Source of the DNA: Macrocystis pyrifera
Lineage: Eukaryota > Sar > Phaeophyceae > Laminariales > Laminariaceae
Length of the DNA stretch: 64,000 nt
Direction of reading: 5' to 3'
NCBI GenBank assembly: GCA_031763025.1
Contig: JASSKH010000020.1
Span: 8,678,528 to 8,742,527, forward strand
Shown here: piece by piece, positions 2,751-64,000 of the stretch
Numbering within the stretch: the stretch's first letter is position 1
Layout of the letters: each line of letters starts with the position of its first letter
The notes under the pieces: generated by a model
Database searches by the model: none
Told to the model about the DNA's origin: nothing
What the model saw: the letters and a program-made list of their open reading frames with translations, nothing else
Position numbers and translations under genes: made by a program

Positions 2751-3476
2751 TGCGGCCCCGAAAAAAAACACAACAATGGAGAAAAATCAAGCCGCGGCAC
2801 AGAGCATTGAGACTGACGGACAACCGCTGCGCTCGTACTTCCTTCGGGATAGCCACCACCTACTCCCTGGCTAGCTTTCTTCTGACTGGGAGTAGGGTGC
2901 TTGCTTGGCGCTATCGACCGTTGACAGTCTCCAACCAAGGCGGAGTTTCGTACGATACATCCGATGGAGACACGAACACGGCAACTTTATCCGAACCAGT
3001 ATCATCGGCCAAGCCACTGCAGGTCGATGTTGGGCTACTGCTCATGAATCTTGCCGCAGGTTTCGTCGCGGTTACTATTACGGGGGACCATAGTAAATAG
3101 GACCAAATATTGCTAGTAAAAATAGGGCAAATACATAGGTTTTAGTGTGTACCGTAGGTCTTATTTACTATGGTCCTCCGTTGTAGCCCTAAGCCAACTA
3201 GATACCCCCACGCTGGGAGTTCTGGGCCGTGTGAGTAGGCTCCGCATGCTCGATAGTCTCAATGGTACCTCGGCAATTTTTGTACCAAAAAACTCGCACG
3301 AGCTCGAACAGGACCAAAGCATCGAAGGGCCAGATGTCTCCGCACACACGACAGGCGACTCCGCGTTCTTCAGGGTGCAGCCTACTCATGTGCATTCGTC
3401 ACGATTGGTGCCGGATGATCAAAACAGGCCCGCGTCCGAGGGCTTGGCTCGGAAAAGCTCGGATGAGCTTGGATAG
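2738..3476 (+). pseudogene. Possible coding stretch interrupted by a MITE
   Basis: Two open stretches flank the MITE at 3078-3183. The left one (2738-3077) ends with protein-like sequence including LQVDVGLLLMNLAAGFVAV, which looks like a membrane segment. The right one (to 3476) includes GTSAIFVPKNSHELEQDQ and a long hydrophilic tail. I do not recognise a family, and no initiator, splice site or downstream partner is clear. It could be an exon of an unknown gene broken by the MITE, or chance open frame in GC-balanced DNA. Confidence 0.2.
3078..3183. mobile_element. Palindromic TTACGGGGG MITE, copy 2 (TA target site)
   Basis: A 106-bp inverted repeat that starts TTACGGGGGACCATAGTAAA and ends CTATGGTCCTCCGTTG, with TA on both sides. 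It is the same family as 189-293. Confidence 0.85.
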
Positions 3477-12091: not shown

Positions 12092-13003
12092 CAGGGCTTT
12101 TCGCGGGTCAGGTCAAACCTCACGGGTCGGGTCGGGTCGGGTCGGGTTGGGTCAGCTGACCCGACCCGACCGCGAAACGATTGAGGTGTGCTGACTTGAT
12201 CCGACCCGACCCGCGACAATTTGAAAGCCTCTTGCCCGACCCGACCGGACCCGCGAGATTTAAACTGTCGTTGACCCGACCCTACCCGTGAGAGTTGGAA
12301 AATCTCCTGACCCGATCCGACCCGGCCCGCCACCTTCCGATTGACCCGTGAGACACGGGTTTCATGCGGGTCGAGTCACCTTGACCTTGTGAGACCATTT
12401 GTCTTGACCCGCGGGTTCGACCCGCGGACCCGGCCCGTGGATCGACACGTCAGAAGCAATTGAATATTCATTTATGTGCCCCACAGTGATATGTGGCCTG
12501 GCTGTAGTGGGTATGGATAGATGCGGGCATGCGTACATGGACTTGGCGCTGATTTAATGTTTGAATATGATACCAAAGGAGTACAATCGATTATTGGTAC
12601 GAGAAAAGACTTTGGGTAAGAATAGTGCGGGAAGTGCTTCAAGTGTCGGATCCGACCCGCGGGTCAGCAGAAAATAATTCGCGGGTCATGCTGGCCCGAC
12701 CCGCGAGTGACCCGTTGCTCGCGGGTCATGACCTGACCCGACTCGTGAGCTTTTCATTACCTCCTGACACGACCTGACCCGACCCGTGAGATTTTAAAAT
12801 TCTTGATCTGACCTGACCCGACCCGTGAGGTTTGAAACACTCTTGACCCGACCCGACCCGACCTGCGAGACTTGAAAACCTCGTGACCCGACCCGACCCG
12901 AGAGAGTTTGAACACTTCCTGGCCCCACTCGACCCGACCCGTGACATTTTAAACCCCCCGTGACGCGACCCGCGGGTCGGGTCATGACCCGCGAAAAGCC
13001 CTG
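12092..13003. mobile_element. hAT-like non-autonomous element with CCGACCCG interior, copy 1
   Basis: A 912-bp element with perfect 19-bp terminal inverted repeats, CAGGGCTTTTCGCGGGTCA. Eight-base flanks CTTATTTT (12084-12091) and CTTGTTCT (13004-13011) match at six of eight positions, as expected for an old hAT target-site duplication. CAGGG termini are also typical of hAT. Beside both ends are repeated units of about 45 bp, each a GACCCGACCCG run followed by GAGATTTGAAAACCTC-like sequence. A unique core of about 170 bp (12455-12625) is shared with the copy at 54391. There is no transposase frame. Confidence 0.85.
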
Positions 13004-30413: not shown

Positions 30414-33400
30414 ATGGCTCAGGATACGGCGACGACTGCTGTGCTCACCCACAGCGTGCTGGCCACCGCGAGGATCTTCGTCGTCCTGCTGGCGGGATTT
30501 CTCGCGTCCAAGTGGCCTAGGCATGATCGTGAGTACCTGGTAGTAGACAGCAGTCAGTCAGAGCAGTAGAATAATGTACCCAGGGCCGTGATGATGCTGG
30601 TTTAAAGTCTGACAACAACCAGTCAGAGCAGCATTGCAGAGAGAGGTAGAAGAAGAGTGTACCCACCTGCCGCGATGATGATGCTGGTTGAAATTCTCGA
30701 CACAACTCCACAAATAAATTTGCTGTGGTTGCTGACCGATAGTACAGAACCTGATATATGCTATTATTCCAGCTATTGGATATACTACTACTCGTTCATA
30801 CTCGTACTGCGTAGCTGCTCAGATCTCGTTCGCGGTCATCATGCATGTGGGAGCGGGACTTCTTCTGGCGTCCAAGCGGTCCAATTACGTCGAGAGCCTC
30901 ACTAATAAGAAAACAGCAGCTTCTACTACTACTGCTGTACAGCAGTACAGTACACGTACAAACGCATGCACGAGCTCTTTCTTTTACCCTGCTTTTCTGC
31001 TGTTGTTGTAGGACTTGGAGCAAGAAATTGCTTATCTTGAACTCTTTTACCTACCTGCTGGAAGAAATTGTTCGAGAACCACAGAAGACACTATAGCTCT
31101 CTCCTCATGCATGGTTCGATGACCGCAAGCAAACAAGTAGGGGTCTCTTTTCACAACACGACTATTTCGTCTCCCCGAATTAAAAAAATAAATATTCAGG
31201 GGGTGTCTACTAAAATACCTGGTATTAATAAAATAGCTATTAATAAAATAGCTAGAAAAACAAATACATATTTTTGCCGCTTTGCCCTCATTTTTCTCAT
31301 TTTGCCTCCGTTTTGTGGGCGGGGGCCAGGGTGCCAAGAGGGCCCTTTACAGGCGAGATCAGATTGTAACCTCCCCGCTAGTCCCCTGATCCTCCGCTGT
31401 TCACGTACATACTTACGAGTGAAGGCAATTCCAGTCTACTGTCTGTCGGGAGACCAGTGTTCATCACTGCAACACCTACCTAGTAATGCAACTTCACAGC
31501 AAGCACAAGCAGCCTATATTCATTGCCGAGATCAACGTTCAGTCGGGACTGCAGCAGCACAGACAGGCTTACGATAGGTAATGGTTATTTAGCGGCAATG
31601 TAGTACCTCCGGTGAAAATGCGTACTGCCATAATGTCATGTCGCGTACAGGTACACCAGGTACGCTGGTACCTGGCATCACGTACCGGTATCACGCGGCT
31701 TGCAGAGTAACTGTTGAAGTTGGGCATCGACCGATCGGGAGAGATCTCACAACGCAGCGCGGTGTATTCACATGCATGCGGTTGTGATTTTGACTTTTCA
31801 CGACAGCAAAGTTTTGTACCAGGTATTTCGTCTCCCCGAATTCAGAAAATATGTATAAAAATATAATCAACCGGGTTATAAAGTATCTCAGTGCGCAGAA
31901 TGATTATTTTAAATTGTCCTGTTGACCCGGGCAGCATCCAGGGGAGCTACTGGCCTATATCTTTGATAAGGAATTACATATAGAATACGCGCGTTCGGTT
32001 TGTCACAAGACTTGCAAAATTCTGTAAAAATGGAATACAGACGAGACGTATTACGCAGCTTGCAAAGTTGAGTATCAACTATTTAATCAGTCGAACTCAC
32101 AGCTGACGTATTTCAAAATTAATAAAATCAACCGAACATCGCAGATCCCCGAATTCAGATGATGTATGTTTCGTATAACTTTTAATAACTGATGTAGGTA
32201 CAGATAGTGCCTGCAGCGAGTGGATCACCGTGCTTATAGTGGAGCACGGAGCACCTCGACTTTTATCGCATGTGAGTTACGACAGGTCTACAGAACTGAG
32301 CAGCGGATCACAATGATTTTATGGCGTGTTGGCCAGGCATCATGTCTTGGTGGCCAAGCATCATGTCCTTCTACATACACTGCATCAATCTTATGTAGGT
32401 TTCTTCTACAAGCACAACTGTCACGGTATTGGCATACGACGCGAAGATGTTACCTTTCGACCTATAGGGGTAAAAGGTCGATCGATTTGATCCTTATAAC
32501 ACTCTCTACTCCTCTGAGCGGTGAAGATCTTTGGGACGCCGGTACCCCGTACGGCCATACGTTGATCTACCCGCTTCGTTTCAATACCATGGAAACTAGA
32601 GGGAAATGCAGTTTCAGGGACACACGCGCAAGCGCTTCTATTATAAGAGAGACGTGCGAAGGGAGATTTGAGCCCGTGTCCTCCACGGCGTCAAATGTGA
32701 AGGTGCTGCTGCCTACTGAGCTATGGGCGTAAAAGACCGATCGATTGCCCAGCCCAGGGTAATCCTTTTAACACTAGCACTATAAGTACGAGTGGAGCCG
32801 TGCTGGTGAGTAGTCTGGCAGAAGACGTTGTATTAATAGCAGTATTGGCTCTAGAGAGTGGGGAAGCACCTTCTCTGCTCACTCTGCCTCTAGAAATGAG
32901 CTCCAGTACTTGTGGTCTATTTACTTGTTGTACTCTTTTGGTCTTCGCTGGGTATGAGTATCTACGACATATATTTGTATGTCGTAGTCGCGTATCGACT
33001 GCAGAAGTTCACATTTTACAGTTTCCTCAAGCTTCCCTTCGGAGCTGCACATTACCAGGGTATTTTGGCACTTCCATCCAGAGCACTGCGCCATGGGCCA
33101 TCATGTCACTGCTGCCATGGACACCTTTAAGACAGGGGCATGGCACCGCCATGGCATTGCCGCCTGCCGCGGCGCTGCCATGGCGGAGCCTGCAGTACCG
33201 TGGCGAAATGCCGTGCTACACGCCATGGGAACCATCATTGGTGCAATTGCGACGCTTGCTACGGCGCTCGCCATGGTACTGCCTCATGGCGCCACACAGG
33301 GGTGCCCATTCATGGGCGGCGTGGCTGTACTGCCATTGTACTGTAGCCTACTCACACGTCAAACGGACAGGTCATGACCTATAGCATTACAGTGAATCAC

Positions 33401-51667: not shown

Positions 51668-51929
51668 TAATAACTCAACTACTTGATCAGTCGAACTCAC
51701 AGCCGACGACGTATTTCATATTTTTTATAAAATTCGTCAGTTGAGTATCAACTATTTAATCAGTCGAACTCACAGCTGACGTATTTCAAAATTTATAAAA
51801 ATTCATCGGTTGTTTTTGGGTCGCAGGCGATACGGGACGGTATATCAAAGCTCGTTATTATTTATGTACCGTTTCCCTTTTATCACGGACCGGTACACGT
51901 GTGCTGCTACTACTACTGTGGTGCTACTA

Positions 51930-54390: not shown

Positions 54391-55095
54391 CAGGGCTTTT
54401 CGCGTGTCAGGTCAAATCTCACGGGTCGGGTCGGGTCTGCTGACCCGACCCGACCCGCGAGATTTTGAAAGCCTCTTGACCCGACCCGACCCGACCCGCC
54501 ACCTTCGGATTGACCCGTGAGACACGGGTTTCATTGACCTGCGAGACTATTTATCTTGACCCGCAGGTCCGACCGGCGGATCCGCCCGGTGGATCGACAA
54601 TTCAAAAATAATTTAATATTCAGTTTTGTGCCCACAATCGATATGTGGCCTGGCTGTAGTGGATATAACTGGATGCGGGCATGCGTATATGGCTTTGGCA
54701 GTGTTTTAATGTTTGAATAAGATATCAAAGGAGTATTATTGAATATTTGTACGAGAAAAGCCTTTGGGTAAGAGAGCGGGAAGTGTTTCGAGCGTCGGAT
54801 CAGCAGGCCGGATGCGCGGGTCCGATCCGCGGATCAGCAGAAAAGGATTCGCGGGTCACGGTGGCCCGACCCGCGAGTGACCCGTTTCTCGCGGGTCATG
54901 ACCTAACCCGACCCGTGAGCTTTTCATCACCTCTTGACCCGACCCGTGAGCTTTTCATCACCTCTTGACCCGACCCGACCCGACCCGACCCGTGAGATTT
55001 TGAACACTTCCTGAGCCGACCCGACCCGACCCGTGAGATTTTGAACACCCCGTGACTCGACCCGCGGGTCGGGTCATGACCCGCGAAAAGCCCTG
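54391..55095. mobile_element. hAT-like non-autonomous element with CCGACCCG interior, copy 2
   Basis: A 705-bp element, left end CAGGGCTTTTCGCGTGTCA and right end the inverse of CAGGGCTTTTCGCGGGTCA. The flanks GTGATTTT (54383-54390) and GTGATATC (55096-55103) match at six of eight positions. The undisturbed site in copy A (near 31782) reads TTGTGATTTTGACTTTTCAC with no element, which shows the insertion directly. The unique core (about 54605-54775) matches 12460-12625. It has no transposase. Confidence 0.9.
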
Positions 55096-55127
55096 GTGAT
55101 ATCGACTTTTCACGGCTGCAAAGTTTT

Positions 55128-57106
55128 AACACCTCGGATAACCTAACGCTTAACGTTTTATGTTAATGTTAGGCGTCAGCGAAAAAAAAAACGTAGCATT
55201 TCGTTACCACGTTAACTACTTTTTGGATTTTGTGATAACATAGTGTTAGTGTGTTGTGATATATTGGCGGGCGATCGCGTAACATTATGTTTGAGTGTTA
55301 CCTTGGTCTCGTACTGACCGCAGTATTTGTTAGGGTATGCAGCCCATAGCGAGTAACACTACCTTAGGGTGTTAGCGGAAATTCTGGTGGCTATCGTAAC
55401 ACACGTTGAAGGGATAACGTACATGGTCAATTAAACGTTAACATTACGTTACCGTGTTAGCGTTATCAGCCCGTAGCGAGTAACGTCATGTTAGTGTGTC
55501 AGCGGGGTTCTTCGTGCTACCGTAATACCCTTTCGACGGATGACGGACACGGCCAAATAAACGCGTACATAACACTATGTTAGTGTGTTAGTGAAATTTC
55601 CAGGGGCTACCGTAACACACGTTAAAGGGATGACGTATACGGTCAATACAACTTTAACATTGTGTTACCACAGTCCGTTTCCAGCGACGTTATGTGAGGG
55701 TATTACGGAAGTAACATAGAAACGTACGTCAAACGGATAACGTATATGATCGATAACACACTATTGATTGCATTATGTTATTGTTATCTCGTGTGCAATG
55801 TATGTAGTGACACAAGTTAGTAGATAACGTACACCCGCAATCTAAAGTCAACAATATGTTACTGCCGTGTTCACTCGTACGTGCGAGTGTGCAGATTACG
55901 TTATCGATGGATGACGTAATGTGTTCTACCTGGTAGATGGATGACGTACTGGCGGGGTTTCCACGAAAAATGAGGCGTTTTTTTTTTTGCGGGTATCCCT
56001 CCTAAATATCCCCGGTTGGGGTTTTAAAATATGAAGGCGTTTTTTACCGGGGATGCCATGCTATCCTCCCCCCCGGGGATATTTTTGTAGGTATCCCCCA
56101 CTGGGATGTCGGCGAATATGGATAACACGGCTACGCTATGTTACTCCCACACGCCCGCTTTACCACTAACACAGGTAACACATGTTAGATCTCGGGAAGA
56201 TCCAGAGGGTAACGTAGTAACATTACGTTAGAACGACTTCGGCCCCAACGATAACTCAGTAACACAAAGTTAGACCCGGATTGGTTTTTATGGTGACACG
56301 GTAACGGAATGTTACCATCAGATCTTTACTGACGGTAACACCGTAACATAATTTTACAGAGACTTCCGCATTTAGGCTAACATCCTAGCATAATGTTACG
56401 TATGGGCCGGCTAAGACTGTAACGTATCTAACGTACGTTAAGTGTTACGTTATCCGACCCTAAGGCAATGAGATGGGGGGCCCAGATAACGTAGTGTTAG
56501 CAGCGCTGGCCATTGCGTTATGTTACGTTATTAGCGTGTTATCTGTAACACAATGTTATATGTTAGCAGTGCTGGCGAACATATGGTAACATGATGTTAG
56601 GGTGTTATGCATAACACTCCTCCTAAGGGTAACATAGTGTTATTGCGTTACGTCTGACGCTGCGTCGATACTAACATTATGTTATCGTGTTATTACGGGG
56701 GTCCATAGTTAACGGGACCAAATTTTGTTAGTAAAAATAGGCAAATATATAGGTTTTTATGTGCACCATAGGTCCTGTTAACTATGGACCCCCGTAATAG
56801 TAAATATGCGGATATCGATCTGGGCATGTTAGAAGAGTGATACCGTACGTGTTTGGTCAAAGCCTGTTAGTTCAAAGGCTGATCACGGCATAACGTAATG
56901 CTACCGTACCAGAGCTGGACGAGACCGAGCAGCAACATAACGATAAGGCTCGTGCACGTTCGTGGGTTTCCAGTTAACACTGTGTTACCGCGTTACCGTG
57001 ATCGCTCCTCTAGTGCTAACACTATGTTAGTACGTTACCACGTTCCTTGTGTTAGGCCCGACAACGCAGACAAGTGTTATCCGAGTGTTACGTTGTCCGA
57101 GGTGTG
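55128..57106. mobile_element. Motif-saturated TAAC/GTTA DNA element with TIRs and 8-bp target-site repeat
   Basis: A 1979-bp insertion. The left end AACACCTCGGATAACCTAAC mirrors the right end GTTACGTTGTCCGAGGTGTG. An exact 8-bp direct repeat, AAAGTTTT, flanks it (55120-55127 and 57107-57114). The interior holds dozens of TAAC/GTTA phrases such as TAACATTATGTTA and GTAACGTTAT-like palindromes at irregular spacing. It has no long reading frame. It also carries a nested TTACGGGGG MITE (56693) and a GGGTATCC...GGGGATA foldback near 55975-56105. Superfamily is open: 8 bp suits hAT, and many internal binding-site-like motifs suit either hAT or MULE. Confidence 0.8.
56693..56797. mobile_element. Palindromic TTACGGGGG MITE, copy 7 (TA target site)
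   Basis: A 105-bp inverted repeat, nearly identical to copy 4 at 15335, with TA on both sides. It is nested in the TAAC element, so it is the younger insertion of the two. Confidence 0.9.
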
Positions 57107-57739
57107 AAAGTTTTTCATTTTAGGTACTGCTTGCTGACTGACCTGGTGTGAAACGTCTGTTGTGCGTAAGCTGGGCGTTTCGTGTACATTGGCACTACAA
57201 TTGCTGTAGTAGGTAGGTGCAGATAATGCCTGCAGTGAGTGGATCGCCGCGCTCACAGTGAAGCACCTCGACTTTTCTGCCATGCGAATTACAGGTCGAC
57301 AGAACTGAGCAGCGTATCACACGGACTTTTTACGGCGCGTCGACGTGGGTCGCGCATCGTACATATCCTTGTATTGCTGAACGTACACTACACGGTTTAA
57401 ATCTTCGGTAGGCTTCTTCTACGTACCGGGTACAGTACTAGCATAGTGTGAGGATGTTACTCACTGAGCAATATAGGTGTGAAACATCGATCGATTTTAT
57501 CCTTAGACCACCCCTCCCCTCTGAACGTCTGGGTTGGCGCGCGACGACGCTGACGACGCTGTATTACCCGCCTCTGACTGCGTGAGCTAGACAGCCAGGG
57601 TACCGTTGTTTTGTTTTTTTTTGGCGCTGGCGGTCAAGTTGGATACTTATTGTGCGGGGAGGACCTTTACTCCGCACACAGGCTGGATGATCGTATCACG
57701 TAGTGTGCATATGTTGAGCCACCCACGAGCGAGGCAGTT

Positions 57740-60362: not shown

Positions 60363-63300
60363 TCAAATATTCATCAGAAAATCCCGGTGGTAACGAAACA
60401 CCGTATTGTTGAGCGGCTTTGTCAAGAAGTCTGCATGCTGTTTCTCCGACTCTACATGGGTAATAACAAACTCCCCCTTAAAAATAAGCTCGCGCAAAAA
60501 GTGGTGTCGTACGTCGATGTGCTTCGAATTCGATGTGCACACTGGATTTTGTGCCAGGTGCCTTGCCCCCTCGTTATCCTCGAAAACCGTAATGCATCTC
60601 TCCCCAAACCCCGGAAAAATAAAACTCCATACATAGCGCATGAACATTGCCTCCTTGATGGTGTCTGCCAGTGCTACATATTCGGCCTCAGTGGTTGAGA
60701 GTGTGACGCATTTCTGCGTCCTAGAAAACCAGCACACACACGCCCCAGCACACATGATGGCCCCACCGGAAACTGACCTCCTGTCAGTGGCTTTGTTGGC
60801 ATAGTCTGCATCTGCAAACGCTACCAGCTCAAGCCCGCTACCCTTCTGGAACGTAATGCCGAAATCACTCGTAGAAAATACATACTCTAAAATACCGACT
60901 GCTGTCTTCCAGTGTACTTCCCTCGGCCTATTCGTGTACCTCGCTACCGCCCTCACCGCGTTCGCAATATCTGGTCGTGCTTGGTTCGCAAGCCACATCA
61001 AGCACCCCACCAACTCGCGGAAAGGCCAATCACCCACGGGTTCATTCTCGTCAAACTCCTCGAGCTTCACACCAGTCGAAAGCGGGTTATTCCTCCCAGA
61101 ACTAACACCAGACCTCGCCGCGGTATTTTCAGCGAACGCCTGCTGCGAAATCGTCAAAGTACCAGCATCCCAATCCCTCGTAAAACAACAACCAGCATAC
61201 CACCGCAACTCGCCCAGATTGTTGATCGGAACAAGGTTGTTCAGGTCGTCACAGAACTGATCGCATCTAGCCTTGAGTCCTACAGCAAAAATATCATCCA
61301 CATGAACTACCGTTACAATGGAGACAGAGCCCGACTCGACCAACCTCATGACACACGCGTCAGCAGGGCTCTGCTCAAATCCTAGACTCTTCATGTGAGT
61401 GAGAAGGTGGTTGTGCCACGACCTCGACGCTTGCTTCAAGCCGTAGAGACTGCGATTCAACCTGACCACCTTACCAGACATTTCGCCGCAGCCGGGAGGT
61501 AGTCGCATGAATACATCCTCATCCAAACTCGACTGCACGAACGCCTGCTCAGCATCAAAATGACACAAATCCAAACCCAACTCGCACGCAATAGCACCCA
61601 ACAAACGGAAACAAGACGCTGCAGGCGTCGGAGCAAAAGTCTCAAAGAAATCAATACCCTCACGCTGCTTGAAACCTCGTGCCACCAGCCTTGCTTTCGC
61701 CCGCATCACGTCACCATGCTCGTTGGACTTCCAGGCGAACACCCACTTCGCCGAGATGACGTTGAGCCCCTCTGGTTGCTACGTCGCTCCAAATGTCCCC
61801 GCGTCCGCCAGCCCATGGTACTCCTTGTCCATCGCCTGTCTCCAGATGGCCGAATACTCGTCCGCACACGCTTCAGCATACGAGTTCGGCGTCGAAAGCT
61901 CGCTCGCCGGGCGTGTGGGAAGGGGAGGGTTCTCGCGCGGTGGGGCTTGGTGGAAAAGTACATGGCCTATACCTTCCCGCGCTGCCATCAACGACAGCAG
62001 CCCATGCCCCATAGCCTCGCGGTTCCGCGCAGTCTCCCCTCTTGTCCGCCCCCTCAGCACATCTCCACCTTCCGGATGTCGCCCAGCTTCCCCCCTGGCC
62101 CGATCACCCTGCACACCGCCACCACCCTCCTGGTGTCGTGCGGTCTCCCCCCTAGTCTGCCCTCTCTGCACAGCGCCACCGCTCTCCTGGTGTCGTGCAG
62201 TCTCCCCCCCCCTTGTCCGTCCCCTCAGCACATCGCCATCCCCCGGGTCCGGGATATAATAACCCAGTGCCCGGGCAGCACGCTGCGAAAGCTGTGGCTG
62301 CGGCGACTGCTGCGGCGGCGACGGCGATGATAACGGCGGCGACGGCGGCGGCGGCGGCGGCGGCGGTGGCGACGGCGGCGTCGGTGACGGTGGCTGTAGC
62401 GGCGGCGGTGACGATGACGGCGGCAGCGACGGCGACGGTGACGGCGATGGCGGTGGCGACGGCGACGGCGGCGGCGGCGGCGGCGGTAGCGGCGTTGATG
62501 ACGGCGGTTGCGGCGGCAGCAGTGGAGATGGGGACGGTGGCTCGGGCCATACGTCGGGGCCCCTCAGAGGCTCCGGCGCACCCGGCGGTGGTGGCGACGG
62601 CGACGGCGGCGGCGGGGAGCTCTCCTCCTCCGAAGGCAGTAACCCCACAAACGGTTTCCTCGGGTGTTCCCAAGTGACGTCACGGGAGAACGACCTTCGG
62701 CCAGACATCAGCAGGATCTTGCTGCAGTCAGCTGCGTGGTGGTTGCCGCCGTTGAGGTAGAAGCAAGCCTCCGCCTTCGGCTCGGTCTTCAGGGTCCTCC
62801 TGACGTGGTGGAAGCCCGGCTTCAGAAACGGGAGCAGCCGCGCAAACGGTGGTCTCCCGTAGAATTTTCGGTACGGCGAGTGCATTTCCGGCTTGTCCTT
62901 TACCCTCGCCGTCATGTTGATCACATCGCTCGCGTACACGCATGACTCAGCCCAGAGGGGCTGCGTCGCCGGCATCCTTGCATCGCCGAACAGGCGGGTG
63001 GCCTCCAGGCGGGACGCCATTGCAAGCTCCAGCGTCATGGCGATCCGTCGCTCGACCACCCCGTCATGCTTCGGAGAATCGACGGGCGTGTACTCGCGGC
63101 GGATGCCGTGGTGGTTGAGCAACTCCACGAACTCCGCCTTGGTGAACTCGGTGCCGTTGTCCGAGCGAAGGCACTCCACGATGGACGGCACACCCTTCGC
63201 ATTGATGTCGGCCAGGAAACCAGCGAAGACCTTCGGGACGTCGGACTTCCGCTTCAAGAAATACGGCCATCCCAGTCGCGAGTAGTCGTCGACGATCATC

Positions 63301-64000
63301 ATCAAGTATGACGCACCGCCAGCAGACGTAGGCTGTTGTCAGGACAGATCCACGAACAGACGCTCCAGAGGCCTGGTAGAACGGCACTCGGTCGTCCACG
63401 GCACCGCCATCCTCCTCCCTTTCGCCTCAGAACACCCAGCACACGGAACCAACTCCCCAAAAACCTTAATGTCCATCTGACGTGCCGTCTCACGGAGAGT
63501 GTCAGCATGGGAGTGGGCAAGGGCAACGTGAAGGTCGTTAATATCGATCCTCCTCATTTTTCCAGGAGCCAAAACAGCGGCAGCAATCGGGGTCTCTACA
63601 ATCCGCGTGGCGTCTACGTATGAACCCGCGTCCCTACGCACGAAAGACAGCTGTCCATTCAACGTGTGAGCTCCCTGAGCATCACGTGTCACCGGGCATT
63701 TCAACATTACTGCATGAAGCGAAAATAAATTGAAGCGAACACCGGGTACGTATGCTACGTCCATCAGCCTAACTTGAACGTCACCCTGAAAGCTGTGCAC
63801 CACAATTGGAATCTGGCCGAAGTACTCTATCTTCAGTGACCTCATGTCACCGACCACCAAACGGCTCTTACCAGGGGGAGGGGGAGTACAGTTTACCATA
63901 CCAAAAGGGTTGCCAGTCACATGAAAAGTTGCTCCCGAATCCGCTACCCACTCTTTATATCTCCCCCCTCTTTTTCCCGCGACTCTTGAATTCCCACTAT
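60363..64000 (-). mobile_element. Ty1/Copia retrotransposon, comparatively young, running off the right edge
   Basis: On the minus strand, from right to left: a protease-type DSGA motif near the window edge, a GAG-pre-integrase HHCC region (HVALAHSHADTL...CAGC) near 63.4-63.5 kb, an integrase core (VDDYSRLGWPYF; LRSDNGTEF) at about 62.9-63.3 kb, a proline-rich linker at about 62.3-62.6 kb, reverse transcriptase (AKARLVARGFKQREG; VVHVDDIFAVG) at about 61.0-61.75 kb and RNase H (EDNEGARHLAQNPV; SKHIDVRHHF) down to 60.36 kb. It is broken only a few times, so it is much younger than the Copia fossil at 24-28 kb. The gag part and the 5' LTR lie outside the window. Confidence 0.9.

Follow-up and report, generated by a model that had tools for sequence, protein, structure and literature searches.

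A gene-less DNA transposon of Macrocystis pyrifera with an array of putative phased protein-binding sites

The stretch of Macrocystis pyrifera DNA analysed here, referred to as the window in the following, is 64,000 nucleotides long and contains, at positions 55128–57106, a mobile element of 1979 bp that is the subject of this study. Several other features surround it. On the minus strand, the remains of a Copia-like retrotransposon (RVT_2, integrase core) extend over 60363–63338; among seven frames of the window compared with Pfam, two matched a family (RVT_2; integrase core) and five matched none. A repeat with a spacing of ~10 bp, whose open frames are rich in H, T, I, P and Y, lies at 946–1752, and searching the whole window with Rfam yielded no matches at gathering thresholds. 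Finally, a dispersed repeat rich in GACCC/CGGGT, which ends in CGGGTCATGACCCGCGAAAAGCCCTG, occupies 12272–13003 and 54441–55095. It probably corresponds to the two repeats (copy A and copy B), located near 12.5–13.0 kb and 54.7–55.1 kb, that a previous interpretation of the bare letters, hereafter the sequence-only reading, had taken for a filled site of the element and an unfilled relative. This does not hold, as the two repeats cease to match at 55095, which is ~30 bp short of the element, and no further match follows on its other side.

The element at 55128–57106 (strand not assigned) is one copy of a non-autonomous DNA transposon bounded by terminal inverted repeats (TIRs), as judged from these repeats, its target-site duplication and the existence of other copies; its length includes a nested 105-bp MITE. 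The left TIR (55128–55150, plus strand) differs at three bases from the family form CACACCTCGGATAACGTAACACT, the right one (57084–57106, minus strand) at a single base, reading GTTGTCC versus GTTATCC in the family. The termini are AACACCTCGG...CCGAGGTGTG in the window copy and CACACCTCGG...CCGAGGTGTG (CACACC..GGTGTG) in the family form, and the end sequence of the family is CACACCTCGGATAACGTAA. In the family majority sequence of 1910 bp, the TIR is perfect over 23 bp, with positions 1–23 matching 1888–1910 in inverted orientation. An exact 8-bp repeat, AAAGTTTT, flanks the window copy at 55120–55127 and 57107–57114. A long open frame is absent from the family majority, where the longest stop-to-stop frame comprises 85 codons versus a mean of 97 in shuffled sequence. 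The sequence-only reading had described both the flanking repeat and the lack of a gene correctly.

It had also proposed a search for further copies with the same ends, and these exist. Compared with the assembly (537 Mb, 223 contigs), the element gave at least 86 aligned pieces at at least 40 places, a lower bound on the copy number of the family because only 40 of 2573 first-look candidates were scored. Both ends were recovered at 38 of these 40 places, the window copy included, with lengths of 1900–2027 bp (the two without an end-bounded element are L045 and L047). An extra copy was met by chance in L053, beyond the 40 scored places. We considered whether it represents a second family with the same ends and rejected this: it belongs to the same family, lies in reverse orientation, is ~96–97% identical and carries an insertion. 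The contig in question (C219; L053 1–8005) holds three family copies within ~10 kb, the first cut by the start of the locus and one reversed with an insertion. Per-copy mean pairwise identity among the 38 copies ranges from 0.924 to 0.959, the window copy being the most diverged. In the family tree, inner branches are short and tips longer, and 12 of 34 inner branches are well supported. Neither the tree nor the duplication table includes the copy L009, the boundaries of which are ambiguous owing to a nearby second end; it was retained in the family majority and in the divergence rates described below.

The 8-bp duplication is a property of the family. With L009 set aside, and L039, L040 and L041 removed as duplicates of L035 (one insertion in C217), the two flanking 8-bp copies are identical at 17 of 34 insertions, differ by one mismatch at 10 and by two or more at 7. 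When the left side of one copy is paired with the right side of another, none of 1122 combinations is identical and 16 show one mismatch. With the duplication length fitted freely over 38 rows, 26 rows were best described by 8 bp without a shift, and the remaining 12 by a different length or a shift. The 27 distinct duplications of the family reveal a target preference for AAANNTTT. In addition, we found empty sites for four insertions, in which the flanks are joined across one 8-bp copy; these are other members of related repeats rather than alleles of the same site. For L020, the junction is matched perfectly, at 27 of 27 bases (window 51774–51800), while the empty sites of L033 (a MITE family member, window 3076–3181), L042 (L045 693–1001) and L029 (window 32010–32126) show small differences near the junction. 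The 38 end-bounded copies, the duplications as compared with their control and the four empty sites thus bear out the earlier proposal of a mobile element with TIRs and an 8-bp target duplication.

The interior of the element is rich in the tetranucleotides TAAC and GTTA. The window copy contains 101 of them in total, whereas 500 dinucleotide-preserving shuffles average 35.2 and 500 base shuffles 19.0, a check that the sequence-only reading had called for; 2-kb bins of the window clear of the element contain 4–15. Neither of the two outcomes that this reading had named as refuting it, a lack of further copies and a motif count at the shuffled level, thus occurred. We find, instead of the single short motif that it had described, largely a composite site of 21 bp, TAAC-N5-GTTA-N4-GTTA, which is asymmetric. 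In the commonest layout, TAAC is followed by GTTA 9 bp on, by a second GTTA 8 bp further and, after another 25 bp, by the next unit, giving a pitch of 42 bp. Allowing up to two mismatches in the 12 core bases, 29 such sites are found on both strands of the majority sequence, six of which overlap another at the same palindrome, leaving 23 places; 200 base shuffles averaged 0.2 sites and never yielded more than 2. The window copy keeps 17 sites with at most one core mismatch.

The spacing of these sites, which had been called irregular, is mostly regular, with breaks in phase. The palindromic part, TAAC-N5-GTTA, occurs 22 times with perfect arms in the majority, with 10 pairs exactly 42 bp apart, 6 at 84, 5 at 126 and 4 at 168 bp, whereas 20,000 random placements, a model that leaves duplication out, reached at most 6 pairs at any single lag between 13 and 299. 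Similarly, 28 pairs of GTTA are separated by 42 bp, compared with a median of 2 for lags of 5–399. Of the 25 gaps between neighbours among the 26 palindromes with at most one mismatch, 12 measure exactly 42 bp and two measure 84 bp; gaps of 39, 43, 56, 60, 83, 85, 89, 101, 139 and 364 mark the phase breaks. We judged phasing by these exact-lag counts in place of the power spectrum, in which the strongest periods are 8.3, 10.7, 8.4, 41.5 and 42.0 for all half-sites, and 14.0, 10.4 and 44.5 come first for palindrome centres.

Along the element, the sites are arranged in blocks of +, – and + orientation. In the window copy, the left block (55194–55590, plus) comprises sites with at most one core mismatch starting at 55194, 55236, 55280, 55354, 55439, 55481 and 55570. 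The middle block (56210–56398, minus) consists of five sites in exact 42-bp steps, at 56210, 56252, 56294, 56336 and 56378; in the majority, these five consecutive reverse sites span 1113–1281, between the forward left and right blocks. The right block (56587–57037, plus) has sites at 56587, 56630, 56672, 56975 and 57017. Left and middle block are separated by a segment free of TAAC and GTTA (55950–56120, no strand), which contains T-runs and GGGGATA/TATCCCC and is present in the family; positions 901–1000 of the majority contain no motif base. When both ends are read inward, they are asymmetric, with + sites at the left and – sites at the right end.

Between the reverse and the right block, at 56435–56457 (majority 1339–1361; no strand assigned), lies an internal copy of the terminal sequence, an exact 23-bp inverted match to majority positions 7–29 that lacks the last bases of the end. 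This layout suggests that majority positions 1–1361 go back to a shorter, older ancestor of symmetric build, in which an array pointed inward at either end, and that it later acquired a right segment bearing a working end. The right block also encloses the nested MITE (56693–56797, 105 bp, no strand assigned), which has the inverted ends TTACGGGGGTCCATAGTTAAC and a TA duplication and is absent from the family majority. The same TA of the element, following GTGTTA, holds this MITE family in three copies (56693–56797 in the window, L046 from 2079 and L052 from 563), in a sample that favours MITE-bearing copies because the query contained the MITE. The L046 MITE matches that of the window better when inverted (score per base of 0.83 versus 0.50). 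Three MITEs at one TA point either to an insertion hotspot or to an inserted palindrome that has since flipped.

How did this array come about, and what has preserved it? Aligning the 18 in-phase units, we obtained an identity of 0.81 in the 12 core bases, 0.54 in the five inner bases and 0.286 in the 19-bp spacers; as the motif served to find most of these units (3 of the 18 were placed by phase alone), the core value is biased upward and the contrast is in part circular. Shuffled spacers have an identity of 0.250 with a standard deviation of 0.008, and none of 2000 shuffles reaches 0.286. The left block has a core identity of 0.87 and a spacer identity of 0.25, the middle block 1.00 and 0.34, and the right block 0.68 and 0.30. 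An alternative set of 29 sites gives a spacer identity of 0.277 versus 0.251 after shuffling, with a few pairs up to 0.81. Two segmental duplications are recognizable in the left half, one of 72% identity over 334 bp (lag ~216) and one of 78% over 147 bp (lag ~127). Together with the spacers that are slightly above chance, they indicate that duplication contributed to the growth of the array. The sequence-only reading had considered that the motif spread by slippage or gene conversion. The left-half duplications agree with this for parts of that half, but the near-chance spacers in the 18 in-phase units speak against recent events of this kind because copied whole units would not leave such spacers, and we reject recent slippage or gene conversion as the only source of the motif for most units. 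The units may nevertheless descend from one another, with cores and pitch preserved and spacers worn down to a nearly random level of similarity. Near-chance spacers beside kept cores suggest an array of putative phased protein-binding sites maintained by selection.

After insertion, no selection on the motif is seen: at non-CpG positions of 35 copies (L039, L040 and L041 excluded as duplicates of L035), divergence is 0.0256 for motif bases versus 0.0262 for other bases. Such equal decay would follow from selection confined to the source lineage, and would follow just as well without any selection.

From the sequence data, we consider it most likely, with some reservation, that the array binds a putative element-encoded protein, the transposase or a partner of it, for the pairing of ends, and that the element is mobilized in trans. 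The gene-less element would then be a cut-and-paste transposon, moved by the protein of an autonomous relative. The 13-bp palindrome TAACATTATGTTA would be bound by a dimer, and the third half-site, 8 bp on, would give the site its direction. B-DNA has 10.5 bp per turn; since 42 bp equal four turns, this pitch would align neighbouring dimers along the same side of the helix. The relative's protein, be it a transposase DNA-binding domain or an accessory protein, could load cooperatively along the element, and the coat formed in this way might strongly favour the pairing of its ends. Spacers would be free to drift, whereas cores would be kept in the lineage that continued transposing. The repeated transposase sites of Galileo, described below, provide a published parallel (PMC3688188). 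Several of the observations above weigh against this reading, namely the interruptions of the pitch, the asymmetry of the ends, the lower core identity of the left and right blocks, the equal divergence of motif and other bases after insertion and the share of duplication in building the array. The earlier interpretation of the motif as a candidate transposase-binding site would be in line with this phased architecture.

Two other roles for a bound protein appear unlikely to us. By analogy to VANC proteins, an element-encoded factor with an anti-silencing or chromatin function could bind the array, which would then serve the escape from silencing rather than the transposition reaction. There are precedents for this, as the available parts of the respective publications report that VANC21 binds dense YAGTATTAY motifs of one orientation in the non-coding DNA of VANDAL21, targets that grow by the formation of tandem repeats (PMC5735166, PMC10398659), and that a giant Sola-1 element of Ectocarpus has a ParB-like plus DNA methyltransferase accessory gene (PMC12477816). 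Yet the present element has no gene to protect, such that improved accessibility would be the sole benefit to a copy without coding capacity, and its sites occur in both orientations with near-chance spacers, unlike the tandem repeats targeted by VANC. The other role, to which we likewise assign a small probability, is that of a mobile operator array. Most of the element would then be a track, in phase with the helix, on which a transposon-encoded protein distinct from the transposase is loaded, for example a ParB-like or anti-silencing protein; selection would have fixed the four-turn pitch and left the spacers free, and the gene-less element would spread as the best-coated substrate of the genome.

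We regard it as even less probable that the array is an old 42-bp minisatellite inside a transposon, with the motif as its least diverged part and no role in binding. Its periodicity of 42 bp, the segmental duplications in the left half, the spacers slightly above shuffled ones and the similar decay of motif and spacer between copies would all fit this explanation, and MITEs are known to carry or generate tandem repeats, as described in the available part of PMC9659126. However, neutral decay alone would not leave cores at 0.81 (1.00 in the middle block) beside spacers at ~0.29, with the limitation that the units were mostly found by motif, and the orientation of the blocks flips while the pitch holds. 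Neither are the units similar throughout, as Tandem Repeats Finder returned no 42-bp array over the element and spacer identity in the 18 units is 0.286 versus 0.250. Finally, it is very improbable that phase and palindromes serve a DNA structure such as cruciforms or nucleosome positioning instead of a specific protein: a 13-bp palindrome with perfect arms does occur 22 times in the majority, but any palindrome would do for this purpose, yet the same letters recur, loop bases included, and arms of this size would generally be too short for stable cruciforms.

Motif arrays in transposons are not new as such, having been described for the TIRs of Galileo (PMC3688188) and for the non-coding DNA of VANDAL elements (PMC5735166, PMC10398659), as far as the available parts of these articles go. 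What distinguishes the present case is the presence of about two dozen composite sites in a gene-less element, many of them at an exact four-turn pitch, with spacers close to chance. In the literature that we covered, namely titles and the beginnings of abstracts, with most subscription journals lying outside, we found no non-autonomous element in which sites in phase with the helix are separated by unrelated spacers. Should relatives show the same pattern, it would reveal at the sequence level that selection acts on phased protein binding in a non-coding transposon. It also leads to a testable claim on the requirements of a non-autonomous element other than its ends, and with a site of such precision the protein can be sought.

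Viral contigs contain a comparable pitch. In these contigs, no stretch has the exact 19-base end of the element and none has two full 21-bp units at 42 bp, but three (L049, L050 and L051) have three bare palindromes at this distance, a pattern that is present in 40 of the 51 loci we collected and absent from 11. L050 was discarded as a phased array, being a plain 21-bp tandem repeat. The other two, L049 (1374–1470) and L051 (3971–4067), are phage contigs with three GGTAAC..GTTACC palindromes in exact 42-bp steps, which lie, as judged by eye, upstream of an apparent regulator gene; they count as one case because they come from one metagenome and are apparent relatives of each other. These operator-like arrays share the palindrome pitch of the element. 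By contrast, they comprise only three sites and belong to a viral genome, and we take them as a separate instance of this pitch, a likeness of pattern that need not reflect common descent.

We compared the element with known superfamilies of DNA transposons. CACTA (En/Spm) elements have CACTA ends and 3-bp duplications and are excluded by the CACAC ends and the 8-bp duplication found here. Still, En/Spm offers a parallel in that a protein of the element recognizes a short subterminal motif, present in both orientations, and brings the ends together; its repeats resemble those of the element in their two orientations and are located near the ends. MULE (Mutator) elements have long TIRs, although some lack them, and duplications of 8–11 bp; the 8-bp duplication of the element fits, but its TIR has only 23 bp. 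The duplications of hAT elements follow the pattern nTnnnnAn. Those of the element share the length of 8 bp but not this pattern, with A at position 2 in 20 of 27 and T at position 7 in 20 of 27. Members of the P superfamily, such as Galileo, have duplications of 7–8 bp and CA..TG ends, in agreement with the CACACC..GGTGTG ends and the 8-bp duplication of the element, with the difference that Galileo itself duplicates 7 bp. In KDZ elements, the transposase of which we take to be Pfam family PF18758, the 8-bp duplication is that of Zisupton. Compared with the KDZ elements described in the available part of PMC12730594, the element thus shares the duplication length of Zisupton and the CA..TG termini of Kyakuja from Laccaria, but the latter has 7-bp duplications and no TIRs, as opposed to 8 bp and TIRs here. 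Giant KDZ elements have been reported in the brown alga Ectocarpus, according to the accessible part of PMC12477816. The 8-bp duplication and the CA..TG ends are compatible with KDZ, hAT and P alike.

With regard to the array itself, two systems invite comparison. In Galileo, a member of the P superfamily from Drosophila, binding sites for the THAP domain of the transposase occur in tandem repeats of the long TIRs, and higher-order multimers as well as specificity through multiplicity have been suggested, as the available part of the source states (PMC3688188). Repeated binding sites inside the element, putative in the present case, are common to both, but Galileo has unusually long TIRs, whereas the element described here combines a 23-bp TIR with an array that runs at a pitch through most of its length. 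In the VANDAL elements of Arabidopsis, as outlined in the available parts of the two studies, VANC proteins bind motif arrays in non-coding DNA and thereby lift silencing (PMC5735166, PMC10398659). These targets are dense motif arrays in non-coding transposon DNA, as in the present case. VANDALs, however, exhibit degenerate TIRs and motifs in tandem repeats of one orientation, whereas the element exhibits clear TIRs, an 8-bp duplication and sites in both orientations, separated by near-chance spacers.
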